From: a virus | IMG/VR virus record: IMGVR_UViG_3300027754_000045 | Coordinates: 1-64,000 of that record | DNA length: 64,000 nt | Reading direction: 5' to 3' (one strand) | Shown here: in pieces, positions 14,119 to 54,610 of the stretch | Position numbering within the stretch: position 1 is the stretch's first letter | Layout: every line of letters begins with the position of its first letter | The notes under the pieces: model-generated | Database searches by the model: none | Told to the model about the DNA's origin: nothing | The model's input: the letters and a program-made list of their open reading frames with translations, nothing else | Program-made: the position numbers and the translations under genes

Positions 14119-17100
14119 ATGGGCGTAATGTCTATTCCATGTTGTGATATCTCTGCCACAATTCCTCCTGTTATTGTTCCAAAGACTGGACCTGTATTGG
14201 TTCGTGCTGGCTGGTATCATTTTTTAGTAATGTCTAAAGGAGGAGAAGTTACAACCTTTATAGGTTCTCCGCCATTAGTTTATAAAACTGGAGTTACTGG
14301 TGATTATTGGCAAACTCGCTGGGGAGACACTCCAGCAGATCCAGATCCCACGACTCCTATAGATCCTACAAAAGAAGCTGATAGAACAATATGGCCACCA
14401 CAAGGATCAGAATATATAAAAGGAAATTGGTGGCAAAAGTTTGGTGGTGGAATAAAAAAATACCACCCATGGAGCTACGCAGATTGTTCTTATCATTTAG
14501 GAATCACTGGTTGGGATTCTGGGTGCATAGCAAGAAGCACAAACATTACTGATGGAAAAATAGGAGAACACGGAACGCTAATAGTAAATGCTACTTTAGA
14601 ACCGACAAATGATGGTCCTGGTTATGATTTTGTTGGAATTGCTACTGGACTCGAAGGTTCAGATGATCCTCCAAAATGTACGGAAAAATGTTATTATGAA
14701 GTTTTTAAATGGTATGAGTATCCAGGAAGTGATAATAACAAATATATACGAGAATTTTATCCTGAAATAATAACAGACTATATTAATCTTGATGGATCGT
14801 ATGATGGATTAGGTGTAACGCTATACGAAGCAACGCAATGCTCTAAAGGACTTCCAAAGTATGTCACTCCTTATTCTGCAGCTCAAATAGCTCCTGTTGG
14901 TCATCCACTAGAAACACCAACAAATATTCCTGGTCCAGTTGTTGATATTGTTTGTGGAGCATATCATAATATAATTAAATTGTTTGATAATTCTATAATG
15001 GCTTGGGGTTTAAATAGTATGGGTCAGTCTAATGTCCCAGAATCTTTATTGCCAGATAGTTTAAGACCAATTACTGTTCCGCCACATCCAAAAAAATCTA
15101 AAATATGTAGTCTTCATGCTGGATATTCTACTAGTGCTGTTTTGTTTAATGACGGAACTGTTTTGTGTTGGGGAGATCCAGAAGTTTCTGCAGCTGTTAA
15201 TCAATGGAAACATATAAGAACATCTGTGATAAAACTATTTCCAACCGATGGTCAACAAAAAAGTTGCATAGGAGCTGGATCTGAAGGATATCCTGAATGT
15301 CTGCCTGGAGAAGACTGTACTGCAGCAGAAAATTGGGTTGTGCAGGACAAGATAAAAAATGGTTCTTATAACGCACAAAATGATTGGAATGGTGAATGGC
15401 ACGGCGGAGCAGCTCCAGCATATCCGCATTTTGATCTTGGAGTTGAAACTGAATATGTCTATCCAGTAAATTGGGGTCACGTAGCAGATTTTTCAAGCGG
15501 AAGTGTTGATAAACCTGCTGGTTATGTGATTCCAGGTGACACCGACGAAGAGGGTGTTGATGTTCCGCAATATTCTTACAGGTATGCAAAAAAATGGGCA
15601 AGTCTAGGTGGTAACCAAAGCTTATGCTCGCAAAAAAATAAAATTGTAAAAGATTATGCTGTTGGTATGTTGAGAACTGGGCAAATAGTAACAACAAGAA
15701 AAACTAATGCACCAGAAAGCGGCAAAAATCTTTTGTATTCTAGAGATTGTAATATGGATGCACATACATCAAGATCTGATGGTGTGATAACTGTTACAAA
15801 TAAAGGACCAGCAATAAATTTCAGAGCAAGGATCGGTAGTGACAATCAAACGTGCTCAGACGCTAATAACAATTGTTTTGGTGATAATGAAGTGTTTAAT
15901 TGTAGTACTTTGAGTACACCTAATGGTCCATATAAGGAATGTCTTCCAACAACAACAATTTGTGAAGCTTATAAAAGATGGGAACTTGGAGATAATGGGG
16001 GATGTGAAGATAATGGACCAAGTGCCCAAAACAGACCAGAAGGAATTGGTTGTTTTTGTTCTGCAGATGACGAAGATGGTTATGATCCAAACTGGGCTGG
16101 TGCTGATCTGATTTATAAATCTGCTGGTCATGTTCGTAAAAATTATCCTGGATGGAATTCTGCAGAATCTACATTTGGCTGGTCCAGTTTACCTGTAATA
16201 CAGTCTAGATTTATTCCGACTCCTGGATTTTATGAATCAATTCGTGCTGGGTGTAGAGGTATAGGAGCGGTTACTACTACAATATGTCAAAATTACTTTC
16301 CAGCGAATTTGAAATGTGGATCTGAATGTCCTTCTTCGGATGGTATAGGTGGCAACATAATAGCAGATCCAGGAAAAAGAGGAGCAGGAATTCTTGAAGG
16401 AACTCCTGGTTATTTTACATACCCTACACACATGAATAGTCAAGGATGTGTGGCTGGTACGAATACAGTTTCTTGGTTATCACCTCCTCCTTTATTCCCA
16501 GAAAATTTATTTAATAATCTTCCTTTTTATGGAGTTGATGGGACGAGAACGAATTTTCAAAATCAAGATACATTGAATAATCAATTTCCGCAAAGTAATG
16601 GAGAAGGACCAAACAAAACAGTTAGAATTGGTACTAGAAATTTAACAAGCGGAGTATTTGATAATGGGAGAAGAAATGGAAATGTTTGTAGAGGTTGCGA
16701 TCATGTTGGGTCTCATCGAGAACACAAATATAACATACATCGTGTAACTCATGGAGTAATATTTAATATTAATGAGAAAGATCCAGATGGTGCTATAAAC
16801 CCCTTTACTGGTGGTTCTAAGTGCGGAGTTTGCGAAACCGAGACCGATCCAGGTACTCGGGAACTGGGTGGGTGTAATAATTTCAGACCAATAATATTAC
16901 CACAATACTCTATGAGACCATCAAAATCTTGGGGTCCATTTAATATAGAAAAACATATAGGAATGCTTCCTACTCCTCCTGTTTTGGAGTTGGGTATTTG
17001 GAGATATGGCAATCAATTGCAATTGTGGAGTACATTTAATAGTGGTAGATCTATAAACGAGAATGTGTTTAATTTTGGTTATGTGACGGAGGGATTGGTT

Positions 17101-20100
17101 AGTTTCAAAGAAGGATTTGATGAATCTCCTGGAACTGTAAACAGTTTTAAAAATACTATACCAACATCTACAATACCATGGATGTATATTTTAGCTCAAA
17201 AAGGAGACCAACAACCAACTCAAAAACAATGGCAGGGAGGACGATTAGCATTCGAAATCACTGAAATGTGTGATCAGCGTAATTGTTGGGCTGATGACGA
17301 ATTAAATGGTTTGGGAACAGCACTTGGTGGCGACGGAATGGGTTGTGCTATGTCGGGAGCATATAATATTTACGAACCTCATAGTTCAATGAAGGCGTTT
17401 TGTGCAGGGGAATTTAAGCACAGTTGTGCTGATCCTATTAAAACTTATAATCCAAACAAAAAACAAGAACTGTTAAATTCAAGAGGATTTACTCTATACT
17501 CTCCACCAGAACCTGTCTATCAAAAATCTCCAGAAATTTCTAGTATATCTAAAGATAAATCAAAAATTGCTATTTTAAGTAGAGCAGAGAACGGTATTAT
17601 AAACCTTTTTGTTTGGGATATTACATCCAAAGCAAATAAAAAATTAATAAAATTTAACGCAATTGAATCGGTTATGGTTATTATCAAAACACCATACAAA
17701 ATGAAATGGTTAGAAGATAATACATTATTAGTTATGTTTAATACCCCAGGAGATAGATTGTTTAAGTTGTCTGCTATTATTATTAGCAACTTTATGGGAT
17801 CAAACTATAAAATTAAACCAGTAAAATTTACCAGAGAATACAAAGACAGAAAGGATAATAATGGTAATCCAATATCAAATTTTGTATATACTGATTACAT
17901 AACATGCTTTATAGAAAATGGTAATACTACACACCAAACAATAAACAGTAATGATATAAACTCAAAAGATGGAACAATATGTACTTTATATGACACAACA
18001 ACTGTGGATCAAGGGACTGGTTTCATGAGAGATTATAATAAACAACATGTTAATATTTGGAAAAATAATACTTCTGTCCCAATAAATGGTAATCAAAACA
18101 GAGATAACTATGTGTATTATAAATTATGCGGTGTTAATACAGTTAACGAAATGCTGGATGTTGTTCGTCACACAACATTTTTTTCAAGAACATTGGGTAA
18201 TCCTGATGGTGTTACTTTATCACCAGCTAGAGGTAAAAATTTAAACGACGGTGAAGGTAAAGATATTCATGCTGCTGTTACTAATGATCGCATTCCTGTT
18301 GATACTTTATTCTTAAACGAAAATATCTACATGAGAGCTGGTGGTTATGCACAAACAATTCACTTTAATTCTCTTGGTGATTTAATGTTGTCTAGTAATA
18401 CTTTTAAATCCGTTGTTTGTTGGGGATTGAAAGGAATAACATCAGAGACAAAACAAGACGGAGAATCGGAGTTTTCTAGGGGAGAGTTAAATCCAAATAG
18501 TAGTAAATTACTTCTTGATACGGATATTGATGATACGAATTACACACAAACATTCAATAACCAGCAAGTCGCTATAGAACAAGATATAGAATCAGGTAGC
18601 GAAGAGGGAGCAGTTTTCAATTTTAATTATAATCTTTCCGAGCATTTAGGTGGTGTGGACGCAGAACACGTAAAATCAAACACAACTGGTAATAAAATTG
18701 CAATTTTTGGATGGGATAATACAAATATTAGTGCTTCATTACAAAATTCTGAAAAAGGACGCAAAGTTATTCAAATTAATAAATTAATTTGGGGAACTAC
18801 GTTAGAAGCATATGATAGAGGGGCAAAAATAAGACCAAATCCTGCAACTCCTCCAACAATTAAAGACATTATTCCTGCACCAACAACAATAGAAAAACAA
18901 ATAGACATCTACGAAGACGGATTTACTGTAAACCGAGATCACACTGGGGATAGTGATTTTCGATATAGAGCTGTTAACATGATGACAGATAGAGACACAC
19001 AATCATTCAGCAAATATCTATCAATAGACGATACATTAAATTTTGCTATAGTAATAGATATTTTAAATGATAGGGGCGGTGACAACAATCAAACTGCTAG
19101 GTGTTCGTTTATTCACATAGACGTTTTAGCAAACAAAATAAATAGATTTTTTAATGTATTTCCAGAAACTACTCAAAATTCGTATTCTGGTGTAGAATTA
19201 ATTAAATCTGATATGGCGGTTATTTTATCTTTAAGTGTGCGCCCTTACAAAAAACCAATATTTAATATAACAACAGATATAGAAATTCCAAATGTTTATG
19301 TTTTTGACGGAAAATCTCTTCCTAGTATATACAAACTTTGGCCATTAAGAAACAGACGAATATGTGGTTGGAGACAGGGATTGGGATCACCTCCTCCACT
19401 TGGATGGACTGGTGGTGGTAATTTTGAGTGTTGTGGTGCTAGAGACAATAGCTGTGGTCCAAAAATAATAACGCCAGACAAAAACCCAGGAGACTTAGGA
19501 TGGGTAAAACCAACAGAATGTAACAAACAAGTTCAGTCTAAAGGACTTAATGATGTTTTGTGTCCTGATTGTGAGCAAGATAATACCGACGAATATAGTC
19601 GATGGGCATTCTTAAATTATACTATATCATATGCCACTGGTAGGAGTTGGTCTGTTCATCTAAGAGCAAAACCATGGGATCGTAAAAGAGATAAGGGATC
19701 CTTTTTTCTTAAAGTGAATAATTGCGAAGAAACTTCTGCTTATAACAGCAATGAATTTTTTGACGATGGCGGAATAACTATTCAGAAATCACCAAATCAT
19801 ATTTCTGGTAATTATGACAACGTTAAGATATGGGTTGTTGGTGATTTAACGGATCCTTGCCCTCCGTGGCCACTAAAAACGTGGAATAGCGAATTTGATA
19901 TCGATATAGACAAACCACGAGCATCAACTACAGTTGGTTATACTGTGCAGGGTGGTAAAAATCATACAGGAAACCAAGCACTTAATGGTATTTCTGGTAC
20001 ATTCAATATTAAATATTGTCCACTATATCCTTCTTGGGTTCCGACACCTAATTCTGGTGGTCCCCACAACACCAAGCCAAGACAATCATATAAAGGATCT

Positions 20101-20751
20101 TGGGGTGTTGGCGGAGATTGGAAACAAGCATTATACGGTATTAAAGAGGGAAAATTAAACGGAAAGAATGTTTCTGAATGTGGTTTAAATATTCAAAGTA
20201 TATCAGATATAGAAAGTATAAATTCTAGTATTGGTAGAACTGATGCTGCGTATCAAGATACTAGTTGTGGCATTTGTGAAAAATCTTGGACTAGTCCTCT
20301 ACCTCCAGAATCAGATATTGTTGGCAAGGTATTTTTCAAACAAGGATTTGAAAGTCCTTGGAGTGTTGATGGCGTTGGTTCCGTTGCTGCAACACACGGA
20401 ACACAATATAAACAAGACGACACTATAACTATTGATGCACTACCAATCTGTAATAATTTAAAATTGGGGTCTTGTTGGAGACCAGATGCAACAGAAACTA
20501 GTGGATGGACTTGTTCTTACGGTTCTATAAATGCATGTAGTCATTGTCCAGATTCTACAAATCCAAATGATGCTGGTTATTTTAGAGAAAATGAGCTTTG
20601 TGCAAATAGTCAACAACCACAAGAGACTGAATTATTTGACGAAGAAGGAGAACCTATAAAAAGAGGTTGTGATGTTTATAATAGATGGTGCTGTGAGTGT
20701 CCACCCGACCAACCAGGTTGTGGTTGCGGTAATGACCAGCCAGAAGAATAA
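14119..20751 (+). CDS. Giant virion protein with RCC1-like motifs (2210 aa)
   Basis: The largest gene in the window. The N-terminal sixth has RCC1-like repeats: AGWYHFLVMSKGGEV at about 33, CGAYHNIIKLFDNSIMAWG at about 278 and HAGYSTSAVLFNDGTVLCWG at about 333, each a strand pair ending in W/F-G as in seven-bladed RCC1 propellers. The centre (about 1130-1750) is beta-rich with repeated hydrophobic strands. The C-terminus (about 2080-2205) is rich in Cys, ending in CCECPPDQPGCGCG. No signal peptide or membrane segment. Size, low charge and Asn/Gly/Thr richness fit a long fibre or adhesin; a decoration role is also possible. An AAAGG site precedes the ATG. Two structural-looking genes face it on the other strand. 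Confidence 0.7.
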   Translation: MGVMSIPCCDISATIPPVIVPKTGPVLVRAGWYHFLVMSKGGEVTTFIGSPPLVYKTGVTGDYWQTRWGDTPADPDPTTPIDPTKEADRTIWPPQGSEYIKGNWWQKFGGGIKKYHPWSYADCSYHLGITGWDSGCIARSTNITDGKIGEHGTLIVNATLEPTNDGPGYDFVGIATGLEGSDDPPKCTEKCYYEVFKWYEYPGSDNNKYIREFYPEIITDYINLDGSYDGLGVTLYEATQCSKGLPKYVTPYSAAQIAPVGHPLETPTNIPGPVVDIVCGAYHNIIKLFDNSIMAWGLNSMGQSNVPESLLPDSLRPITVPPHPKKSKICSLHAGYSTSAVLFNDGTVLCWGDPEVSAAVNQWKHIRTSVIKLFPTDGQQKSCIGAGSEGYPECLPGEDCTAAENWVVQDKIKNGSYNAQNDWNGEWHGGAAPAYPHFDLGVETEYVYPVNWGHVADFSSGSVDKPAGYVIPGDTDEEGVDVPQYSYRYAKKWASLGGNQSLCSQKNKIVKDYAVGMLRTGQIVTTRKTNAPESGKNLLYSRDCNMDAHTSRSDGVITVTNKGPAINFRARIGSDNQTCSDANNNCFGDNEVFNCSTLSTPNGPYKECLPTTTICEAYKRWELGDNGGCEDNGPSAQNRPEGIGCFCSADDEDGYDPNWAGADLIYKSAGHVRKNYPGWNSAESTFGWSSLPVIQSRFIPTPGFYESIRAGCRGIGAVTTTICQNYFPANLKCGSECPSSDGIGGNIIADPGKRGAGILEGTPGYFTYPTHMNSQGCVAGTNTVSWLSPPPLFPENLFNNLPFYGVDGTRTNFQNQDTLNNQFPQSNGEGPNKTVRIGTRNLTSGVFDNGRRNGNVCRGCDHVGSHREHKYNIHRVTHGVIFNINEKDPDGAINPFTGGSKCGVCETETDPGTRELGGCNNFRPIILPQYSMRPSKSWGPFNIEKHIGMLPTPPVLELGIWRYGNQLQLWSTFNSGRSINENVFNFGYVTEGLVSFKEGFDESPGTVNSFKNTIPTSTIPWMYILAQKGDQQPTQKQWQGGRLAFEITEMCDQRNCWADDELNGLGTALGGDGMGCAMSGAYNIYEPHSSMKAFCAGEFKHSCADPIKTYNPNKKQELLNSRGFTLYSPPEPVYQKSPEISSISKDKSKIAILSRAENGIINLFVWDITSKANKKLIKFNAIESVMVIIKTPYKMKWLEDNTLLVMFNTPGDRLFKLSAIIISNFMGSNYKIKPVKFTREYKDRKDNNGNPISNFVYTDYITCFIENGNTTHQTINSNDINSKDGTICTLYDTTTVDQGTGFMRDYNKQHVNIWKNNTSVPINGNQNRDNYVYYKLCGVNTVNEMLDVVRHTTFFSRTLGNPDGVTLSPARGKNLNDGEGKDIHAAVTNDRIPVDTLFLNENIYMRAGGYAQTIHFNSLGDLMLSSNTFKSVVCWGLKGITSETKQDGESEFSRGELNPNSSKLLLDTDIDDTNYTQTFNNQQVAIEQDIESGSEEGAVFNFNYNLSEHLGGVDAEHVKSNTTGNKIAIFGWDNTNISASLQNSEKGRKVIQINKLIWGTTLEAYDRGAKIRPNPATPPTIKDIIPAPTTIEKQIDIYEDGFTVNRDHTGDSDFRYRAVNMMTDRDTQSFSKYLSIDDTLNFAIVIDILNDRGGDNNQTARCSFIHIDVLANKINRFFNVFPETTQNSYSGVELIKSDMAVILSLSVRPYKKPIFNITTDIEIPNVYVFDGKSLPSIYKLWPLRNRRICGWRQGLGSPPPLGWTGGGNFECCGARDNSCGPKIITPDKNPGDLGWVKPTECNKQVQSKGLNDVLCPDCEQDNTDEYSRWAFLNYTISYATGRSWSVHLRAKPWDRKRDKGSFFLKVNNCEETSAYNSNEFFDDGGITIQKSPNHISGNYDNVKIWVVGDLTDPCPPWPLKTWNSEFDIDIDKPRASTTVGYTVQGGKNHTGNQALNGISGTFNIKYCPLYPSWVPTPNSGGPHNTKPRQSYKGSWGVGGDWKQALYGIKEGKLNGKNVSECGLNIQSISDIESINSSIGRTDAAYQDTSCGICEKSWTSPLPPESDIVGKVFFKQGFESPWSVDGVGSVAATHGTQYKQDDTITIDALPICNNLKLGSCWRPDATETSGWTCSYGSINACSHCPDSTNPNDAGYFRENELCANSQQPQETELFDEEGEPIKRGCDVYNRWCCECPPDQPGCGCGNDQPEE

Positions 20752-26623: not shown

Positions 26624-27388
26624 ATGACAACAATGCAATTTCCTTCAACAAATGATCCGTTTTTTCCAGATATTCCTGTTTGGATGAACTTCTATGCTGC
26701 CAATTATAGCACATTTTCTCGAAACAGGACGAGAAATTATATTATTTCTCATAACTATCTTCAAATTTCAATACCGTATCCGCAAGATCACACAACCATG
26801 AATAATCAATTTTATGGAAAAGCTGGCTCCAAAAACAACAGAGTTATAGAAAAGGGGTTTGCGGGAGTAGGCCAAATGATAAACGCTCAATTTAATAAAT
26901 TCATCGAAACTAGCAATAGTTTTTTAGAGGGTGGTAATATATTAACATTTGATCATTATGAGACACAATTAGAACCAGGAGCCAGAAGAACTCATAAATT
27001 TAATATTCTTATGATTGCTAAAAACAGAGAACAAGCAAAACAAATAAACGATATAGCATTAGCTTTTCAAACAAACGTATTCCCAATATCAAATACTAGT
27101 TCTATATTAACAATGAGACACCCTCCTTTGTGGTGTTTTAAGGCTTTAGTTATTGGTAATAGTAATTTTCAAACTAATTCTTATTGGGATGGTCAGCCTC
27201 TAGTTTCTGTTTTGGCTAGTGCAGACATCAACAGATCTCCGATTTTAAACACAGCATTTATTACTTCTGATTTTAAGCCAATTGCGGTAAACATAAAACT
27301 TTCGTTTATTGAGCTTGAACCAGCATTACAAGTTGGTGATGGAAGCCTACGAATTTGGAGTAGATCAGAAAGATTAGACGCAAGTTAA
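26624..27388 (+). CDS. 48: Baseplate tail-tube cap protein gp48-like (254 aa)
   Basis: The order of segments (FFPDIPVWMNFYAANYSTF at the start, then ISIPYP, LEPGARRTHKFNILMIAKNREQAKQINDIALAFQTNVFP, later MRHPPLWCFKALVIG, and FIELEPA at the end) matches gp48/gp54-type proteins of T4-like phages that cap the baseplate and start the tail tube. It is shorter than T4 gp48 (364 aa), as in other aquatic relatives. Opens the large plus-strand baseplate operon; overlaps gp53 by 1 bp (TAATG). Confidence 0.8.
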   Translation: MTTMQFPSTNDPFFPDIPVWMNFYAANYSTFSRNRTRNYIISHNYLQISIPYPQDHTTMNNQFYGKAGSKNNRVIEKGFAGVGQMINAQFNKFIETSNSFLEGGNILTFDHYETQLEPGARRTHKFNILMIAKNREQAKQINDIALAFQTNVFPISNTSSILTMRHPPLWCFKALVIGNSNFQTNSYWDGQPLVSVLASADINRSPILNTAFITSDFKPIAVNIKLSFIELEPALQVGDGSLRIWSRSERLDAS

Positions 27389-29247
27389 TGTTTGACTTAT
27401 TTCCAAAAATTAATTACAATTTTGGAGGGTTTACTCTTTCATTGACAAATATTTTTAGTAGTATTAATCTAGAATTAGATAGTCCTCTTGAAATATTTAC
27501 AAAATACATAACTCCTGGCGAACGACCAGATATTATATCTAATAATTTATACAATAAGTCTAGTCTTTATTGGTCTGTGTTTTTAATCAACAATATTAAA
27601 AATCCATTATCAGATTGGTCTAAAAATCAAATTAGCCATGATACACAAATAGAAACAAAGTATAGTGGTTGGGAATATCAATTTGCTAATACGTCGCCTT
27701 TTATTCCAGGAAATACTTTTAATTTTAATATTAATAAAACGAATTCATATACAGGAGTAAATTTTGATGAAATTCTAGAAGGCGATTTAATCATATACGA
27801 GTCTGGGGTTGGATCGTATTCTGTTCAATGTATTGGTTCTGGTGGTTTTACTAGTGATTTTTCCCTTTGTACTAGTCCACAATACGGTCAAAGTAATATT
27901 CCAGACAATTTTGACGATCAGAATTCTGTTGTTCAAACTACGTGTGGTGAATATTTTACTGCGTGTCTTACCTCTGAAGGCAGAATACGAGTATGGGGAA
28001 ACTTTAATACAACTAGTTCTGATCTAACCAAAACTGAAAATATTTGGAAATCTTCCTCGAATGGTTATACTTTTATTCACGGTACTGGAAACGATCTTTT
28101 GGCTATAAAAACAGACGGAAGTATTGTCTGTTATGGCGGATGTACAGCTTTTAATACATTTCAGGTTAGTAGTGGTGGTCCTTACAAAAAAATTGCTTGG
28201 GCTACTAATGGTATTTGTGGTGGAGTTGCTATTACTACTACTGGTGCAACCAAACATTTTGGGTTTACTGGATTTCAAGCAGATATGGGTGCTACGTTTT
28301 CTCATATTGCTTGTGGATCTAATTTTTGTTCAGGAATAAAGGGAAGTAACAAACAAGTAGTAGTATGGAAAGGAAATTTAGGAATAACATTATGTACTAG
28401 TGGTATTACTGCTGGAGGTATTAATGTTTCTGGATTTACTTGTAGTAATATTGCAGCAGGAGATAATCATATAGTAGTATTAAAGGGAGGTAATAACATG
28501 GGAGTAACCTCTTGGGGTGATAATAGTTATGGTCAATGTAATGTTTTTGAATTTGCTAATACTCCTACCCTAATATCTGCTGGTTCTAAACATACTGCAG
28601 CAATTTACACAGACAAAATACAATTTTTAGGCAGTATTGCAACATATAATCAGACTAATGGATGCACTGGCAATCAAAGCAACGTAAACGTTAACGGAAA
28701 GTCTATATCTGGAGAATTTAATAACATATCTTCTGGTAAAGAACATGTATGTTTACAAAAATATGGAACAAACAAAAAATATATTGGTGTCATATCTTCT
28801 GTTGATAGCATTTATAAACGTATTTTTGTAAAATCATTTCAATTTAGTGATTCAAATTCTATTAGTTTTGATGATCCTTCTGGTGTTGTGGTTTCTATTT
28901 GGCGTTGGAGTGATGCGTCAAATAGATATTTACAAGTAAAATTAATACAAAATCAATTACTAAGTATTCAAAAGTATTTGGATTCTACGCTATACATAAA
29001 CGAAAATGATAATTTATTAGATATTACAAGTAATTCTAATTGGATTAATGTGTATATACCAAATTATCTAAACGGAAACAATAGTAATTTTATTACTGTA
29101 AGAAAACAATTAATGAATGATGATTTTGTAAAAAAACAAAAAATTAATTATTTAACAAAGGACAAAATAGAATTATTAAAAGCACAAATAAGATCTAAAT
29201 TGTTATTAAACAGTAATATTAATATAAAATTAAGTGAATTACAATGA
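27388..29247 (+). CDS. 53: Baseplate wedge protein gp53 with inserted RCC1-like propeller (619 aa)
   Basis: Residues 1-100 are gp53-like: LFPKINYNF, ITPGERPDIISNNLYNKSSLYWSVFLINNIKNPLSDW, the pattern by which gp53 clamps wedges into the baseplate. The C-terminal 140 residues (about 480-619, with VSIWRWSD and helical end) look like the other half of the family. Between them, about 180-470, lie RCC1-type repeats: CGEYFTACLTSEGRIRVWG, GTGNDLLAIKTDGSIVCYGG, AAGDNHIVVLK followed by SWGDNSYGQC, and SAGSKHTAAIY. T4 gp53 is only 196 aa, so a propeller of about 300 residues has been added. Probably displayed on the baseplate rim. Overlaps the next gene by ATGA. Confidence 0.82.
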   Translation: MFDLFPKINYNFGGFTLSLTNIFSSINLELDSPLEIFTKYITPGERPDIISNNLYNKSSLYWSVFLINNIKNPLSDWSKNQISHDTQIETKYSGWEYQFANTSPFIPGNTFNFNINKTNSYTGVNFDEILEGDLIIYESGVGSYSVQCIGSGGFTSDFSLCTSPQYGQSNIPDNFDDQNSVVQTTCGEYFTACLTSEGRIRVWGNFNTTSSDLTKTENIWKSSSNGYTFIHGTGNDLLAIKTDGSIVCYGGCTAFNTFQVSSGGPYKKIAWATNGICGGVAITTTGATKHFGFTGFQADMGATFSHIACGSNFCSGIKGSNKQVVVWKGNLGITLCTSGITAGGINVSGFTCSNIAAGDNHIVVLKGGNNMGVTSWGDNSYGQCNVFEFANTPTLISAGSKHTAAIYTDKIQFLGSIATYNQTNGCTGNQSNVNVNGKSISGEFNNISSGKEHVCLQKYGTNKKYIGVISSVDSIYKRIFVKSFQFSDSNSISFDDPSGVVVSIWRWSDASNRYLQVKLIQNQLLSIQKYLDSTLYINENDNLLDITSNSNWINVYIPNYLNGNNSNFITVRKQLMNDDFVKKQKINYLTKDKIELLKAQIRSKLLLNSNINIKLSELQ

Positions 29248-31508
29248 CGGATGTTATAACACAAACTCAAATAGACATCCCAAACATAACTCTTGGTGAG
29301 GTTTCTATAACATCATCTAATCAAAAATATGTACTCTACCCAAGAGAAAACAGTTTATCACAAGAATATTTTATATTCGATCAAATAACTATTACAGAAG
29401 ATATGTTTGCGGAAAGTATTTTTGGAACTTTAGTGTTTAATGATTCATCTTATATAATAGATCAATTAAATCTAACTTCATCTGACAAAATATCTTTTAC
29501 GGTAGATTCAACCTTATACGAATTTAATATTTTAGACGTAATAATTGATTCGAATTTAGCAAGCAAAAATATACACGGTCCAGCTGGTAGTGTACACCAA
29601 GTTATAATTAGATTTTCGTCAAATGAATTCATTTATAAAAATTTTAATGTTAGTTTACTCGAAAACTTTATAGGAAAAATTTCTAAAACTCCTGGTGCTG
29701 CTCCTCCTGAGCAAACTTCTTTAGATTTTGATTCTGGTCAATTATCAGCTGCAGAAGCACAAATGACGGGATTAGTTCAAAAATTATTTAAAGATGATAT
29801 GATGACAAAAGATTCTAAAAAACCCCTAGAAGCACATAACACATACAATGATGTTTGGGTAAAGGCTGAAAATTTTCTTTTTCCTTTTTATAAATTAGGA
29901 AATAATTTACGTATATCGCATTTGATGAATTATGTTTGCGAGTATGCTTGTAGCTTAAATAATAAAAATGCAGTTAATTTTTTTTTCTGGGAAGATCTAC
30001 AAAGCTGGAATTTTAAATGTATTGATGAATTATTAAAAGAGTCTAATAATTATAAAGGAACTTATAATTTAGGCGGCTTGGCAGGAAGTGATAATAGTTT
30101 TCTGAATACTGTAGTTGAAATGAGAATTATTAGCGATATATCTCCGTCTAAATTATTAAATGGTGGAGCAATGTTTGGAGAATATGTTAGAATAATGCCA
30201 GATTGGGGTAATATATATCGTAATTTTTCAGACAATGCAACAGGTTTAACAAAAATGCAAATTACGTATAATTATGAAGAAGATTCCGAAAACTGGGAAA
30301 AAATTTCTCCACATTCATTTTTATCATCAAAAACAAATATTGAATACAAAACGCAAAATGATTATAGTTTTGTCCGTACTTCCGATTATAATTATGGATT
30401 TTATTCTACAGCATATAATTCTGAAAAAAAACCTTGGTGGAATTTTTATGATTTTTCTATTAATAAATATTACGGAAAAAAACTTGGTATAGAAAATAGC
30501 GAAAATATAAAAACTAAAGAAAATTTAATAGACAATATATCAAGTTCAAAAGAAGTTTCTAGAACAGAAAACGAATATTGGCAATCTCAATTTGATTTTT
30601 CAGAACTTCCTGGTGCATTTTTGAAAAAAATATACAAAGAAATAAAATGGCCTTTAACAAAAAATCGTTGGAATTACGCAGAAGCAAAAAAAACTAAAAC
30701 CGAATGGGGCGTTTACAAAAATGTTGTTTGTTGCGATAGTTTTTCTTCTAGCAATGATCAGACTGATTTTTATGCTTTAATATACGCAGCAGACAAAATT
30801 TATGGAGGTAATAGCTTAGGATTTGAAGGAGTTTGTGGAGCCACGGAATTTAATATTGATCCTGGTGGAATATATGCATATTCTTGGCAACAAGTTGAGT
30901 TTTGGCCAAAATCAGAAGTTAAAGACATATTAGAGTCATCCTTTGAAATAATTGAGTTTGAAGATGCTGGTTCGTTTTCATTTCCTTTTGTTTTTGTTAG
31001 TAATAAAAAATCACTAAAGGGGAATTTCGATTATACTGAGGGGTATACTGGACCAGATAATAGAGCTTATAATTTAAGTGAGATTTTAAATACCAGTATT
31101 CCGAAATCGTTTGAAAATAAGAACGATAAAGACCACACAACAATAACGACAAATTCAGGTGTATCTATGCCGTTACATATAGAAGATACAGACAGAAAAT
31201 CATATTCTTCTTATCCAAAAAAATATCAAATGATGCCTGTTGGAAAATTCAGAGTAATTGATAATAACTGTCCAGATTTTTCTCAATCTGGAACAGAAAT
31301 ATCAGAAGAACAAGTAGAAAAAAATGAGTCTGGTATGTATTATGGTGGTAGAATTGTTCACATGAAAGTATTATCGTCCAGTAATCTAAATATGATCAGA
31401 GGATTTACTTTACCTCAAGAATTGCCATTGAAAAAGCAAAGACCGTATATGTTTTTGTTTGATGTTGATAATACACACGATGGCTTGTGTACTGGAGATT
31501 GTGCATAA
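29244..31508 (+). CDS. Baseplate hub-type structural protein (754 aa)
   Basis: The N-terminal ~150 residues (YFIFDQITITEDMFAESIFGTLVFNDS, then ISFTVDSTLYEFNILDVIID and HQVIIRFSS) resemble the first domains of hub proteins such as gp27. The middle is rich in Tyr, Trp and Asn without recognised motifs. Ends with LPLKKQRPYMFLFDVDNTHDG. The next gene, overlapping by 1 bp, carries the matching terminal hub domain, so together they may stand in for one large hub protein. In phage T4 the hub (gp27-gp5) sits at the centre of the baseplate. Assignment is by pattern and position only. Confidence 0.6.
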   Translation: MTDVITQTQIDIPNITLGEVSITSSNQKYVLYPRENSLSQEYFIFDQITITEDMFAESIFGTLVFNDSSYIIDQLNLTSSDKISFTVDSTLYEFNILDVIIDSNLASKNIHGPAGSVHQVIIRFSSNEFIYKNFNVSLLENFIGKISKTPGAAPPEQTSLDFDSGQLSAAEAQMTGLVQKLFKDDMMTKDSKKPLEAHNTYNDVWVKAENFLFPFYKLGNNLRISHLMNYVCEYACSLNNKNAVNFFFWEDLQSWNFKCIDELLKESNNYKGTYNLGGLAGSDNSFLNTVVEMRIISDISPSKLLNGGAMFGEYVRIMPDWGNIYRNFSDNATGLTKMQITYNYEEDSENWEKISPHSFLSSKTNIEYKTQNDYSFVRTSDYNYGFYSTAYNSEKKPWWNFYDFSINKYYGKKLGIENSENIKTKENLIDNISSSKEVSRTENEYWQSQFDFSELPGAFLKKIYKEIKWPLTKNRWNYAEAKKTKTEWGVYKNVVCCDSFSSSNDQTDFYALIYAADKIYGGNSLGFEGVCGATEFNIDPGGIYAYSWQQVEFWPKSEVKDILESSFEIIEFEDAGSFSFPFVFVSNKKSLKGNFDYTEGYTGPDNRAYNLSEILNTSIPKSFENKNDKDHTTITTNSGVSMPLHIEDTDRKSYSSYPKKYQMMPVGKFRVIDNNCPDFSQSGTEISEEQVEKNESGMYYGGRIVHMKVLSSSNLNMIRGFTLPQELPLKKQRPYMFLFDVDNTHDGLCTGDCA

Positions 31509-32491
31509 TGGCTAAAAGATTAAGTAAATTTACAGAATTTAATTTAGATGACTTTTTTGGTATACAGAATGGTCAAGGTTCTAATTTTACGCATGCTCTA
31601 AAACCAACTTCGCCAACTTCATACGAAATTAGTGAATTTGGACCTTGTATGAACCCTGGCGGTTATGTTTCTAATGTAGATTGCCCTGATCTAAACAAAC
31701 CTTACTGCAATTGTCCAAATCAACACCTTATGCCTAAAGGATTTGGGGGAAAAGAGCCGACAGAAAAAGAACTATTATCATTATTAAAAGAGACAAACGA
31801 ATGTGATAAAATAAAAACAGTTTTGTCTGCGGATAAGTGGTTTGGTATTGATTATTCTAATCCTAATTGTTCATATAATTGTTTTTCTGGGATTTGTGCT
31901 GGGTCTCCAAGTGGCGTTAGTAGTGGTTATAAAGAGCTTTCCGAGTTTAATCGTACGACAACTGAACCAGATGCTGGCGAAGAAGATAATTATAGGTTTC
32001 CGTATAGTGAAAGAAAATCGTATACAGACGAAGATACTGGTAAAATAATGTCATTTGTTGGTATTACTGGTTCTACTGGTCCCGATGATCCTACTGATCC
32101 TACTGATCCTGGTGCAACCAGTAATACTGATAAACTTAATAATTTTAAAGATTATTTAGCATATTCTAGAACAAATGCTACTTTTTGGAATACGCCACCA
32201 AAAACTCCACTTTTGAGAAAAGCTCAGACAGCACTATTAACTTATCAGAGAATAAGTATTATGGTGAATGGTCATTTTGATATCAGACCTGGAAACACGA
32301 TTAAACTAAATATTCCTACAGGAGAAGCTAAAAGCATTTCAGAAACTAGGTTTTCTGGTAAATGGATGATTTATAAAATAGAACGAATAATAACTACGCA
32401 AAAACATTCAATGATTTTATCTCTTATGAGAGACGGAAACGCAAAAGATCCAGATACTACAACAAGTGTTGATACTTCAAAAACAGGTTAA
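31508..32491 (+). CDS. Second hub-type protein (327 aa)
   Basis: The start ATG overlaps the upstream stop (TAATG); the GTG start further upstream adds only 7 residues. The Cys/Gly-rich N-terminal half (CPDLNKPYCNCPNQ, then CSYNCFSGICAG) has no match. Around 190-215 there is an STGPDDPTDPTDP linker, coded by near-perfect 9-bp repeats. The C-terminal ~90 residues (ISIMVNGHFDIRPGNTIKL ... SGKWMIYKIERII ... MILSLMRDG) match the final barrel of hub proteins of gp27/gpD type. It may complete the hub begun by the preceding gene. Confidence 0.6.
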   Translation: MAKRLSKFTEFNLDDFFGIQNGQGSNFTHALKPTSPTSYEISEFGPCMNPGGYVSNVDCPDLNKPYCNCPNQHLMPKGFGGKEPTEKELLSLLKETNECDKIKTVLSADKWFGIDYSNPNCSYNCFSGICAGSPSGVSSGYKELSEFNRTTTEPDAGEEDNYRFPYSERKSYTDEDTGKIMSFVGITGSTGPDDPTDPTDPGATSNTDKLNNFKDYLAYSRTNATFWNTPPKTPLLRKAQTALLTYQRISIMVNGHFDIRPGNTIKLNIPTGEAKSISETRFSGKWMIYKIERIITTQKHSMILSLMRDGNAKDPDTTTSVDTSKTG

Positions 32492-43175: not shown

Positions 43176-45587
43176 ATGAGCAATTTTTATTCTAACAGTA
43201 CATTTAATATTAATTCCTTAGGTTTTGGTTTTGGTGCTACGGGACCAAAAGGACCTACGGGACCAACAGGTCCTACTGGACCTACTGGACCAACAGGCAA
43301 TAGTGGTATAGGATTAAAAAGAATTGATACATGGGTCACTAAAAATAATTCAGATTCAGTTACTATTGTTCTGTCTGACGAAACAAGTATTACTATTAAT
43401 GGTTTGTCTGGAAATTCGTCAGATTTTGATACTAATCTTTTTAATATAATAGGCAGTACTGCAGTTAGGTCATCATCAATAAATATTAATAGTAGTGTTT
43501 CTGGCTCTACTGCTTATTTTACTCCTTTGGCGGGTTTTGGTGAAATATCTCTTAGTAAAATATCAAACGATTTAGTTTTTCACGGAACTACTGCAACATC
43601 TGGTATCACTAATGTTATATTATACTCTAAGGGTAATACTTTAGCAAGTTTAATTGATTCTAGTGGAAATAATACACTATTTAAATATAATATTAATACT
43701 TTTGGTTCTACGACAAATTCTGTTGCAATAGCAAATTTATCTTCGTTTTTATTAAGAACATCTACTACAGGAATAACTAATCATAACGCAACAGCATCTT
43801 TTACTTCTGGAATTACTGGTATAGTTTCTAATTTTACCGATATGTCTGTTTACAACACAACTATTAGTAGTCAGGCTGTTGTGAGTAAACAATTTTATCA
43901 TAGTTCTAATCAAGACGTTAGATCTATTGTTAATTCTGCTGGTGAAGTACAGAACAGCGGAATAACTTCTTTTTTCAATACTATTTTTGCTAATATTTCT
44001 CAAGGAATTTCGTATGGATTTAGAAACTTTGGATCTTGTTTTTATAAAGGATGCAAGTGTTTAGACTACGCAACAAAAGAATATTGTGACACAATTGGCG
44101 GAACATTTTCCTCTTCTTCTCTATGTAGAGATATTGTGGGTAGTAGTCCTAATTCAACTGGTTCTTGTTGCCGAGGAATAACTTGCGTTAATACAACAGA
44201 AGCACAATGTGGTTTTGTTGGTGGTCACTGGGGTGGAAATAATACAAATTGTGCTGGAGCTTTTTGTGGAGGAGAGTTTACTCATATTGCAGCTGGATAT
44301 GATCATGCTGCTGTGGTTTATAAAAGTCCTAGTAATATAAATTATTTAATTGGCTGGGGACGAAATCTTGATGGTCAATGTAAAGGAACAACTTCCACTA
44401 ACGGAATCATTGTTAGTGAATCTGAAACAGCAATTCAACCACACGTAATAAAATTAAAGGGTCAATTTTTATCTAATATTAAAGGGGAAAGTTTGATATG
44501 CAGCGATTCGAAGACTGCGGTTATTAGTAATGATGGCAACATTATTATGATTGGAGGAAATACCGAATTAAGCCAGGCAAAGCTGAATCCAAACACAACA
44601 TTTGGTAGATCAATATATGGTACGTTAAATAGCAGTGGAACTCCTAATCTAGATCCTGGTTGCGTTAAAATACACGGAATTACAATAACAAATCCTACAC
44701 AAATTTCAATGTGGCACACAACTCATGCATTAATGCCTGATAAAACAGTTCGTACTTGGTGTGATCAAGGATATCAAGATGGTGCTTATAATGCAAGCAC
44801 TATGTTTGGTGTTAGTGGTAGAGGAGGAGGGCCTAATGGATTAACTGGATTTACTGCAGATTATGTTTATGCTGGACCATATGCAACATATTTTGCTCAC
44901 CAAAATGGAATGACGCATACTACGGTTTTTAACGAAACACCAGCGCAGTGCGATGGAAACCGCTTTGCCGTTGCTGGAGATAGATTGCAAACAAAAACTT
45001 GTGCAGGAGATGTTGCTGCTCCAGCATTTTATTATAATAGCGTTAATAATTTTCCTGGTTTATCTTTCGGGATACCTCTAGAATATTTTGGTAATAGTAA
45101 TGACTTGAAAGGAGTATTCAGAGTAAAACAATTTGTTGCTTCACGATCACAAATAGTTTGGTTGTCTTATGATCCTAGTGGTTCAACGAATTGGACTTAC
45201 ATCCAGAATCACCAAAATAAACCAGGAATGAAAGGACATTGTGGAGATGGGCGTGATGAGTCAGACAACGGAATAACATATGATGGAGATATTGCTTTTA
45301 CAAAATTAGCATCAGGAGCTTATCACATAATTGCCTTAAAGAATGACGGAAATATAATAGTATATGGAGAAAATGATTTGGGGGAATCTACTATTTCAGA
45401 TGAAGCGGACGAGGCTTCTAGAATTCGTGGAGTAAAATTTATAGATGTGGCTGCTACAGCTCATAATACATTTGTTCTTGGAGAAGACAGCATAATATAT
45501 GCTTGGGGTGATCCATTAACAAATTTAATTCAGAATGTGCCAAAAATAGAAGATATTCCAGCAATATTTAACAGAAGTCTATCATGA
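43176..45587 (+). CDS. Modular fibre protein: collagen, cysteine and RCC1 modules (803 aa)
   Basis: Order of modules: collagen tract (GPKGPTGPTGPTGPTGPTG, about 24-42); fibrous region; cysteine modules at about 286-365 (GSCFYKGCKC ... GGTF ... C, and GSCCRGITC ... GGHWGG ... C); then RCC1 repeats to the C-terminus (IAAGYDHAAVVYKS ... GWGRNLDGQC, LASGAYHIIALKNDGNIIVYGENDLGES, DVAATAHNTFVLGEDSIIYAWG). RCC1 propellers bind partners on their faces, so this may be the tip or a lateral adhesin. It has its own late promoter box. Overlaps the next gene by ATGA. Confidence 0.75.
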   Translation: MSNFYSNSTFNINSLGFGFGATGPKGPTGPTGPTGPTGPTGNSGIGLKRIDTWVTKNNSDSVTIVLSDETSITINGLSGNSSDFDTNLFNIIGSTAVRSSSININSSVSGSTAYFTPLAGFGEISLSKISNDLVFHGTTATSGITNVILYSKGNTLASLIDSSGNNTLFKYNINTFGSTTNSVAIANLSSFLLRTSTTGITNHNATASFTSGITGIVSNFTDMSVYNTTISSQAVVSKQFYHSSNQDVRSIVNSAGEVQNSGITSFFNTIFANISQGISYGFRNFGSCFYKGCKCLDYATKEYCDTIGGTFSSSSLCRDIVGSSPNSTGSCCRGITCVNTTEAQCGFVGGHWGGNNTNCAGAFCGGEFTHIAAGYDHAAVVYKSPSNINYLIGWGRNLDGQCKGTTSTNGIIVSESETAIQPHVIKLKGQFLSNIKGESLICSDSKTAVISNDGNIIMIGGNTELSQAKLNPNTTFGRSIYGTLNSSGTPNLDPGCVKIHGITITNPTQISMWHTTHALMPDKTVRTWCDQGYQDGAYNASTMFGVSGRGGGPNGLTGFTADYVYAGPYATYFAHQNGMTHTTVFNETPAQCDGNRFAVAGDRLQTKTCAGDVAAPAFYYNSVNNFPGLSFGIPLEYFGNSNDLKGVFRVKQFVASRSQIVWLSYDPSGSTNWTYIQNHQNKPGMKGHCGDGRDESDNGITYDGDIAFTKLASGAYHIIALKNDGNIIVYGENDLGESTISDEADEASRIRGVKFIDVAATAHNTFVLGEDSIIYAWGDPLTNLIQNVPKIEDIPAIFNRSLS

Positions 45588-46961: not shown

Positions 46962-48200
46962 ATGAGTATTCAATTTAGAGCAAGAACAATAACAAAAACT
47001 CTCGATAGTTATAGCCCTACTGTTTTAGAATCTGACATTGGGTGTTGTTGCCGAAGTACTAAAGCCACAAGTAATCAGTCATATCTAAGATCAAAATGTA
47101 TTTCTTCTGGTGGATATTTTACAAATGCTACTAATTGTGATGATTGTGATGATGATACTACTGCAGCATGTCCTGCCGCATTTAACTTTCTTTCTAATAA
47201 TTCAGGATCTTGTTGTTATTCTTATAAAGAAAATAATATATATTATTTTAATTGTGTAAATAAACAATCTGATATTGAGTGTTTAAATATTCACGAAGGA
47301 CGGGAAGAAGGTATTAAATATAAATTTACACCTAATAGTAATTGTGAAGATAATTTGCCTTGTACAATGAATAAACAATTAGGAAATTGTTGCACACAAC
47401 AATTAGACAATTCTGTTTTGTGCTCTATATCTCAAAGAAAACAGTGTAGTGGTTTTTGGTCTCGTAATGATTATATTCAATCCTGTTCTGGATCTACTCA
47501 TTGTAATGGCGTATATTTTTCTGGAGTTACCGCAGAAAGATCTTCAGCAATTGCTGTTTTGTCAGAACTACAATTATCAAATAATCCTATAGAAAAATTA
47601 CCAGAACCAAACAGCATTTATCAAGGAGGATTATATGTTGGAATATTTGTTCCTGGAACACCAATAAACTCGATAGGATCTAAAGTTTTTGGAAATCCTT
47701 TATCTGGTATGCCCAAAGAATACACAGCAAGGGGGAATACTAATAAAACAAAAACCTCTAGCTGGATATTAATAGCAGCACAGCAAGATTTCCCAGTTCC
47801 AAAAAATTGCAAAATGAGTTCAATTACACTTAACAATTCCTCTTACGACGGAGCATTTAATACAAATAAATCAACTTACGTAAAAGATGATTTGTATGAT
47901 AAAGTTAAAAATTTTTCATATAATGGATTTAATGATTGGTATATCCCAAGTCAGGACGAACTAGCATTTTATGCCAAAACTACAGTTAATTATAGTGATA
48001 TACCATATTTTATTAAATTTCACGAATCGTTATATCTGTCGTCTACTGTATATTCTGAAAACCAAAATCAAAGCTTTAAGAGTAATTATTTAGTATATTC
48101 ACAGAATTTTAATAAAGAAAATTATGGAGAAGTTTCTCTTGTTTCAAGAAATACTTTTGTAAATATTCGTCTTTTTAGAAGAATTTATTTAAAAAATTAA
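46962..48200 (+). CDS. Cysteine-module protein with DUF1566/lectin-like C-terminus (412 aa)
   Basis: It has three N-terminal cysteine modules starting at about 27 (GCCCRS), 83 (GSCCYS) and 141 (GNCCTQ), each with a later C ... GG/GF ... C. The C-terminal ~230 residues contain SWILIAAQQDF ... AFNTNKSTY and GFNDWYIPSQDELAFY (about 322-337), followed by LYLSSTVYSEN and VRLFRR-like end (VNIRLFRRIYL). This is the Lcl/DUF1566 pattern (DWYIPS-x-DEL), related to C-type-lectin folds such as Mtd of Bordetella phages. That points to a receptor-binding tip. No VR/TR template repeat was seen. Confidence 0.72.
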   Translation: MSIQFRARTITKTLDSYSPTVLESDIGCCCRSTKATSNQSYLRSKCISSGGYFTNATNCDDCDDDTTAACPAAFNFLSNNSGSCCYSYKENNIYYFNCVNKQSDIECLNIHEGREEGIKYKFTPNSNCEDNLPCTMNKQLGNCCTQQLDNSVLCSISQRKQCSGFWSRNDYIQSCSGSTHCNGVYFSGVTAERSSAIAVLSELQLSNNPIEKLPEPNSIYQGGLYVGIFVPGTPINSIGSKVFGNPLSGMPKEYTARGNTNKTKTSSWILIAAQQDFPVPKNCKMSSITLNNSSYDGAFNTNKSTYVKDDLYDKVKNFSYNGFNDWYIPSQDELAFYAKTTVNYSDIPYFIKFHESLYLSSTVYSENQNQSFKSNYLVYSQNFNKENYGEVSLVSRNTFVNIRLFRRIYLKN

Positions 48201-53470: not shown

Positions 53471-54610
53471 ATGGCATCATTCGAAGAGGCATCAACACTT
53501 ATTGCAGGAATGATATCATTTAACGGTTTAATACCTATTTTTGGTATTACTGGTTCTGATGGTAGTTCCGAAACAGAAATAGGTATTATGACGATTCCTT
53601 CGTATAATAACTGGTTGGCTAGACTAAACGATAGTTCATACAAAAATACGGGGCCTACTGGTGCTTGGGCTGGAGAGTGGTGGAGTATCTACAATTATCT
53701 TCAATATGGAGGTATTTGCGTTGTTGGAAGTACGGGGTCTACTGGGGCATATTTCGTACAAAATGGTGTTTTGGATCCTTTAGCTACACCACTACATAAC
53801 GCAAATTTAATAAATATAGATGTTGTTTTTGATGGAGGAAATGCAAATTCTTCTATATCTGCTGCCAGCATAGCAAACACAAGAAAAGATTGTTTAGCCT
53901 TTTTGGGAAACAATAAATTGATGGTTATACCTACTGGTTCTGGATACACGTTTCATGGTAGAGATTTTGGTGTTACCGCTGGTAGTGAATACGTTTGTTA
54001 TTTTGCTGGTCGTAAAAATTCAATCAATGATGTTTCTGTTCCGTCTTCTGCTGACCCGATTAAAACTAGTCCAGGATCAGATGCTGCTGGGTGCTTGGCA
54101 AGAACATTCAGAACAAACAATAGGTGGACTAGTCCAGCTGGAACCACGAGAGGACGAATATTGAGTGTTGTTGCATTAGAACAAACTATTACTGAACCCG
54201 AATCATCAAGTTTGTTATTGGGTGGTGTAAATCCTATAATACCAATTAATAGTTCTGGATATATTTTAATGGGAAACAAAACTAGTTATACTGGAACAGA
54301 AGCACTTAAGAATATTCATACTATAAATTTAATTATATTTTTAAAGAAAGAATTAAAAAATATATTAGACAATTATTTGTTTGAACAAAACAACGAAGAA
54401 ACTCGACTAAATATATCAAATTCAGTAAAACCTATTCTTAACAACATACTGTCTTCTGGTGGTATACTAAGTTATGCTGTTGTTTGTGACTCTGTAAACA
54501 ACACAGATAATATTATATCTCAAGGAAAATTAATAATAGATTTGACCATAAAACAATCAGTAACTGCAGAAACTATAGTAATAAACTTTATAATTGATGC
54601 TAGTATTTAA
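53471..54610 (+). CDS. 18: Contractile tail sheath protein gp18, short form (379 aa)
   Basis: Recognised from position between gp17 and gp19 and from sheath-like segments: ISFNGLIPIFGITGS near the start, AGEWWSIYNYLQYGGICVVGS (about 66-86), a central domain with DCLAFLGNNKLMVIP, and the C-terminal sheath fold (KNIHTINLIIFLKKELKNILDNYLFEQNNEETRLNI ... TAETIVINF). T4 gp18 is 659 aa, so the outer variable domains are largely absent. The contracting core is kept. Confidence 0.88.
   Translation: MASFEEASTLIAGMISFNGLIPIFGITGSDGSSETEIGIMTIPSYNNWLARLNDSSYKNTGPTGAWAGEWWSIYNYLQYGGICVVGSTGSTGAYFVQNGVLDPLATPLHNANLINIDVVFDGGNANSSISAASIANTRKDCLAFLGNNKLMVIPTGSGYTFHGRDFGVTAGSEYVCYFAGRKNSINDVSVPSSADPIKTSPGSDAAGCLARTFRTNNRWTSPAGTTRGRILSVVALEQTITEPESSSLLLGGVNPIIPINSSGYILMGNKTSYTGTEALKNIHTINLIIFLKKELKNILDNYLFEQNNEETRLNISNSVKPILNNILSSGGILSYAVVCDSVNNTDNIISQGKLIIDLTIKQSVTAETIVINFIIDASI

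Follow-up and report, generated by a model that had tools for sequence, protein, structure and literature searches.

What does an RCC1-type domain do in a phage tail? The RCC1-like virion proteins published so far, from jumbo phages and phage W70, have no assigned place or function, and DNA condensation is a guess in print. In the available part of the phAPEC6 report, that phage has eleven RCC1-like proteins, proposed to order DNA by analogy with eukaryotic RCC1 (PMC7247149). The available sections on GAP32 describe gp1 as RCC1-like and detected by mass spectrometry, and mention multiple homologues of it in 121Q and PBEC04 (PMC5259590); those on W70 give three RCC1-like virion proteins (W70_237-239, 40-43 kDa) and repeat the DNA-ordering idea (PMC11370258). 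As far as these portions of the sources go, the proteins of the Rak2-like jumbo phages and of W70 resemble the protein studied here in having an RCC1/BLIP-II type domain in a virion protein, but they are separate, unplaced, and unfused to any named baseplate or sheath protein.

We analyzed a 64,000-nucleotide stretch of viral DNA (the window), for which an earlier note had claimed an RCC1 beta-propeller inserted into baseplate protein gp53. A propeller that is covalently part of a wedge protein of known tail place, together with RCC1 repeats in a sheath paralogue, makes the location of such a module predictable and its role testable.

Anatomy of the gp53-RCC1 protein

The open reading frame at 27388..29247 (plus strand) is uninterrupted and encodes 619 amino acids, which profile matches and an AlphaFold model describe as a gp53-type baseplate wedge protein with an RCC1 propeller. 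The virus record to which the window belongs has 153,850 bases, and no second copy was found in it.

Judged by its sequence profiles, the N-terminal part (residues 1-100; 27388..27687, plus strand) is gp53. Residues 1-94 matched PHROG_232 'baseplate wedge subunit' (E 7.8e-15), residues 2-87 matched Pfam Phage_gp53 (PF11246; 29.8 bits against a cut-off of 21), and hhalign aligned residues 2-100 when a profile of 10 RCC1-bearing proteins was compared with 14 insert-less gp53s (E 3.5e-21). These three matches bear out the gp53-type N-terminal flank that the earlier note had proposed. Sequence matches to solved structures were found for residues 36-92 (wedge chain 9f4a, E 2e-5) and residues 16-88 (T4 gp53, 5hx2, E 0.023). 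According to the available part of its source, gp53 has as its ortholog Baseplate Wedge 4, a LysM-fold protein that is universally conserved (PMC10811340). The N-terminal part, for which a LysM fold would be expected, was modelled in blocks of pLDDT 59-89; the fold-search lists were filled by the propeller. T4 gp53 is like the window protein in its N-terminal part and in the place of its gene between gp48 and gp5, but at 196 aa (5hx2, the length that the earlier note had given) it is too short to hold a propeller, as are 17 insert-less gp53s of 183-313 aa.

A linker and the strand 'EGDLIIYE' follow at residues 101-141 (27688..27810, plus strand), where the model has low confidence from 101 to 122. 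Residues 142-460 (27811..28767, plus strand) are predicted with good confidence to form an RCC1-type propeller, which we read as seven-bladed. The RCC1_2 family (PF13540) matched at 51.1 bits against a cut-off of 22. PF25390 aligned to residues 171-455 at 40.6 bits, under its cut-off of 150, and PF00415 matched at 16.6 bits, under its cut-off of 21.7. The RCC1-like repeats of the earlier note were thus present, with a length of some 320 residues (~142-460) rather than the claimed 290 or so.

The earlier note had also called for a structure prediction, and the AlphaFold model does contain a propeller in the middle part of the protein, which VIA-align matched to known propellers at Z 24-26. A first model, from 8 sequences, was confident in the propeller and poor in the flanks (mean pLDDT 54.5). 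A second drew on 29 rows (17 RCC1-bearing gp53s, 2 of them partial, and the N-terminal pieces of 12 insert-less gp53s) and had a mean pLDDT of 72.0; its propeller blocks were mostly at pLDDT 64-93, with weak stretches at ~151-170, 331-350, 381-390 and 421-430. The domain joints of this second model (101-122, 487-499 and 549-569) were of low confidence, and for this reason the pose of the propeller against the wedge is not fixed by the model.

The best solved Foldseek match was BLIP-II (1jtd, E 6e-14). By VIA-align, RCC1, RPGR, HERC2, UVR8 and BLIP-II matched query residues ~142-460 at Z 24-26 with 254-312 aligned residues; RCC1 (1a12) scored Z 24.5, as did BLIP-II (3qhy) with 256/271 residues aligned. 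Eukaryotic RCC1, RPGR and HERC2, and BLIP-II, therefore share the propeller fold at 13-22% identity, but they are not phage structural parts. The blade number of seven was taken from the RCC1-like families and from our own count of strands in the predicted model; the propellers of the RCC1 and BLIP-II families have seven blades. No match to the whole architecture was found among the 50 best BFVD models per search (TM by query at most 0.38), and no rows for the flanks were seen in the Foldseek and VIA lists, which were filled by the propeller.

The remaining residues, 461-619 (28768..29244, plus strand), form beta strands followed by a helix-strand-helix in the second model, with a beta region at 502-529 and the helix-strand-helix, in blocks of pLDDT 67-88, at 571-605. 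The Pfam and PHROG gp53 matches end at residues 87 and 94, and the gp53-type C-terminal part that the earlier note had claimed was not borne out, as profile tests did no better than shuffles. An HMM-HMM comparison (hhalign) of residues 460-619 from 15 sequences with insert-less gp53s gave a probability of 0.2% for gp53 homology. The last 60 residues scored 10.0 against gp53 tails; of 200 column shuffles, 24 did at least as well, and a reversed control reached 10.3. The C-terminal profile had no match among solved structures at E up to 10, and its search of genome contigs returned no confirmed relative. The predicted helix-strand-helix at 571-605 resembles a pattern that we read by eye in gp53 tails, with no significant profile match. 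Attractive by eye too, but rejected, was the reading of a small barrel interrupted by the propeller, with 'EGDLIIYE' before it and 'KYIGVISSVDSIYKRIFVK' after it (compare 'VGETITGSTSGAKGTL' in cyanophage-type gp53); 16 of 200 shuffles did equally well. The wording 'inserted into gp53' holds by position, but the sequence comparisons gave no support for a gp53 identity of the C-terminal flank.

Gene neighbourhood and phage

The gp4-gp48-gp53-gp5 order of T4-like baseplates holds at the window locus. A gp48-like tail tube cap gene lies directly upstream (26624..27388, plus strand; PHROG_230 and synteny), and a hub/tail protein gene in the gp5 position directly downstream (29244..31508, plus strand; first half of PHROG_350 and synteny). 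Behind gp53-RCC1, two open reading frames correspond to the two halves of PHROG_350, and gp25 and gp6 follow. Homologues of gp4, gp48, gp53 and the gp5-position gene occurred in this order in 17 of 17 loci (2 of them identical to the window), and the same order is annotated around the gp53 genes of Ochrobactrum phage OC (187 aa) and phage C48C1 (238 aa). As a side observation, the 436 positions of PHROG_350 are split over two overlapping open reading frames at 29244-32491, positions 35-341 corresponding to a 754-aa frame and positions 340-432 to a 334-aa frame, which describes a split hub/tail protein.

The major capsid protein is of the T4 gp23 type (Pfam, 472 bits), and its closest relatives among ten records listed (54-56% identity) were cyanophages such as S-8S55, and Kyanoviridae phage C48C1. 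We therefore regard the virus, whose only source is environmental DNA, as a T4-like phage near Kyanoviridae. Neither psbA nor a reverse transcriptase was found in the record, and because no reverse transcriptase was found there, we saw no sign of a diversity-generating retroelement. Separately, the open reading frame at 46962-48200 matched Lcl_C weakly, at 24.2 bits and thus under the cut-off of 34.9.

Distribution and evolution of the architecture

Scans of IMG/VR with several queries recovered 15 distinct full-length gp53-RCC1 proteins, counting the one in the window, and 2 partial ones (L047 and L048); the protein encoded on contigs L001 and L003 is identical. Among the full-length homologues, identity to the window protein ranged from 71% down to 34%. 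All 15 kept both the N-terminal gp53 part and the propeller, which excludes a chance joining. One homologue, at L047 (G005:C1, about 55600-56320), lies in two open frames of 404 and 228 aa, either a frameshift or an assembly error. One of the IMG/VR scans returned 40 loci and 26 distinct proteins, 9 with the insert and 17 without; the latter were 183-313 aa long (one was cut at a contig end), and the absence of a propeller was judged in these 17 by length and, for the record of L017 (also that of L060), by family search.

None of the 50,697 named phage records searched showed the architecture. With the whole protein as a tblastn query, the best 60 of 213 records matched residues 1-102 only, and no named phage record covered 80% of the query. 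Used alone as a query, the propeller matched 1 named record (E 0.8), and the part from residue 295 onward had no match up to E 1; a relative's propeller matched 4 records, none of which covers the architecture. Searches of the open papers in PubMed Central brought up no description of an RCC1 propeller within gp53 or a tail sheath. We concluded that the gp53-propeller architecture is real and old. Its anatomy is well established and, within the scope of the searches, has no earlier description. As a kind of finding, the addition of a domain to a known wedge protein is familiar.

Mean pairwise identity among the 15 sequences was 59.3% for residues 1-100, 53.6% for residues 101-141, 51.5% for the propeller and 53.6% for the C-terminal part. 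In 8 pairs, dN/dS was 0.09-0.46 for the propeller, 0.04-0.18 for residues 1-141 and 0.06-0.31 for the C-terminal part; these values came from our own Nei-Gojobori script applied to 9 of the 15 sequences, and the three pairs formed by L104, L106 and L107 differ by few changes. The propeller was under purifying selection in all eight tested pairs. Its rate of change was slightly above that of the flanks, both in identity and, for most pairs, in dN/dS.

Eight cysteine positions were conserved, all within the propeller, seven of them in 15 of 15 sequences and C148 in 14; the 14 insert-less gp53s had none or one cysteine each. The conserved positions span codons 148-426 (27829-28665) and include CxxxC and CxxxxC pairs. 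From this pattern, disulfides or metal sites are possible.

Other RCC1-bearing open reading frames

A six-frame RCC1_2 search of the record gave 11 matches at E up to 1, all in four open reading frames, each with at least one match above the family cut-off. At E up to 1 the search also matched 7 of 14 control genomes, none of them over the cut-off. RCC1 repeats thus occur in three further open reading frames of the same genome, including a second tail sheath, which is new here.

One of the three is a collagen-like tail-fibre-type protein of 803 aa (43176..45587, plus strand), recognised by a GPTGPT stretch and tail-fibre profile matches. Another is a giant open reading frame of 2210 aa (14119..20751, plus strand) with RCC1 repeats (RCC1_2) near its N-terminus; a homologue that also has RCC1 repeats lies on the contig of L049 (34%). 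The third lies outside the window on the minus strand (G000:C1:121817-125380; L038:2817-6380) and is a long tail sheath paralogue of 1187 aa with an RCC1-bearing insert. It matched PHROG_23 (E 4e-16), T4 gp18 (9mkb, E 7e-16) and the sheath C-terminal domain Phage_sheath_1C (30.6 bits against a cut-off of 26.9). The genome also has a short tail sheath of 379 aa without the insert (53471..54610, plus strand; sheath profile matches), which aligned with the long sheath at long-sheath residues 8-125 (54%) and 878-1182 (32%). Since the clear sheath part of the long protein starts near 977, this alignment puts the insert at ~840 residues (roughly 130-970); RCC1 matches fall within it near 289-314 and 802-818. 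In IMG/VR, 5 loci were related to the long sheath, but they matched over 350-368 residues only, the size of the short sheath, and the insert had no match among named phages.

The four RCC1 open reading frames are weakly alike, the best blastp match being that of the giant frame to the fibre (E 9e-4); gp53 and the long sheath matched at E 0.006. This weak likeness rules out recent copying inside the genome as the origin of the propeller. Among named phages, Synechococcus phage BUCT-ZZ01, a phage of lake Synechococcus elongatus, has RCC1 repeats in a protein encoded one gene from a tail fibre gene (UTS52180.1), but this protein is a separate open reading frame of ~700 aa, and all 13 RCC1 matches of the 156-kb record fall within it.

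Discussion

What, then, might the propeller do on the baseplate? RCC1 propellers elsewhere have diverse partners. With modest confidence, somewhat short of an even chance, we favor a rigid docking platform on the gp53 wedge protein over a host-binding tip. We propose this because gp53 is the counterpart of Baseplate Wedge 4 and because of two proteins of Anabaena cyanophage A-1(L): in the available part of that report, a LysM protein is anchored on the hub and joins hub to wedge, and an insertion domain of the wedge protein gp31 holds the long tail fibre (PMC10966104). The A-1(L) gp31 protein is like the window protein in having an extra domain in a wedge protein, but it is a different wedge protein, and the word 'propeller' is absent from the text of the paper (PMC10966104). 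The same comparison makes doubtful the peripheral position that the earlier note had given to the propeller, since gp53 is the counterpart of the LysM-fold Baseplate Wedge 4 and, in the sections available, the A-1(L) LysM protein anchors on the hub (PMC10811340, PMC10966104).

Taking the fold and the gene identity from computation and the place in the particle from the gp53 family, we envisage a wedge protein enlarged by a predicted seven-bladed RCC1-type propeller between a LysM-type N-terminal part and a C-terminal domain. The N-terminal part would lock into the baseplate in the manner known from other contractile tails, and the propellers would be displayed on the baseplate, in six copies by analogy. 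As to the partner, we infer that the propeller most likely holds another virion protein, either a fibre or an outer baseplate part, as the A-1(L) wedge insertion domain does. The RCC1 repeats of the sheath paralogue, the fibre and the giant open reading frame may be the same kind of module elsewhere on the tail.

Because the propeller evolves slowly and no reverse transcriptase was found, a conserved partner fits better than a fast-changing receptor-binding tip. Slow evolution fits docking and is also compatible with a conserved host ligand, and host contact is the main alternative, plausible though less probable: the propeller would bind a conserved glycan or protein of the host surface and so strengthen attachment or signal landing to the wedge. 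The RCC1 repeats in the collagen-like fibre-type protein and the sheath paralogue, both outward-facing parts, speak for such contact, as does the slightly faster change of the propeller relative to its flanks. They are countered by the lack of hypervariability, by a record in which no reverse transcriptase was found, by purifying selection in 8 of 8 pairs and by the conserved cysteine pattern. That the insert is a passive spacer or filler without a binding role would agree with its having no known ligand, but seems improbable for a domain that all 15 full-length homologues retain, even at 34% identity to the window protein, and that is under purifying selection in the 8 tested pairs.

Two further roles suggested by relatives of the fold appear much less likely. 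Since Foldseek placed BLIP-II, which binds beta-lactamases, first among solved structures (1jtd, E 6e-14), the propeller might inhibit or decoy a periplasmic or cell-wall enzyme of the host. We consider this very improbable, given that BLIP-II is short (268-273 residues) and gains on coverage, that RCC1, RPGR and HERC2 tie with it by Z, and that gp53 is a fixed wedge part and not an injected protein. Fainter still is the prospect that the propeller organizes or condenses phage DNA, the idea that the available parts of the reports propose for phAPEC6 (PMC7247149) and repeat for W70 (PMC11370258) by analogy with eukaryotic RCC1. In the present genome the domain forms part of a wedge protein, a sheath paralogue and a fibre-type protein, none of which touches capsid DNA; its fusion to wedge protein and sheath therefore speaks against DNA condensation in this phage and for a role at the tail surface.

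The comparison also shows that gp53, which is small and present in nearly all contractile tails, can bear an extra domain of 320 residues that is kept throughout a clade. What would surprise specialists is a set of RCC1 modules across one tail, the sheath paralogue included. It is possible, though we would not yet wager on it, that the contractile tail of this clade bears RCC1 propellers as a reusable external module, on the gp53 of all its members and, in the phage studied here, on the second sheath, the fibre and the giant protein as well, and that the RCC1 virion proteins of other phages are likewise parts of the tail surface and not DNA condensers. If this is true, the RCC1-bearing sheath could mix with plain sheath to give a decorated tail.
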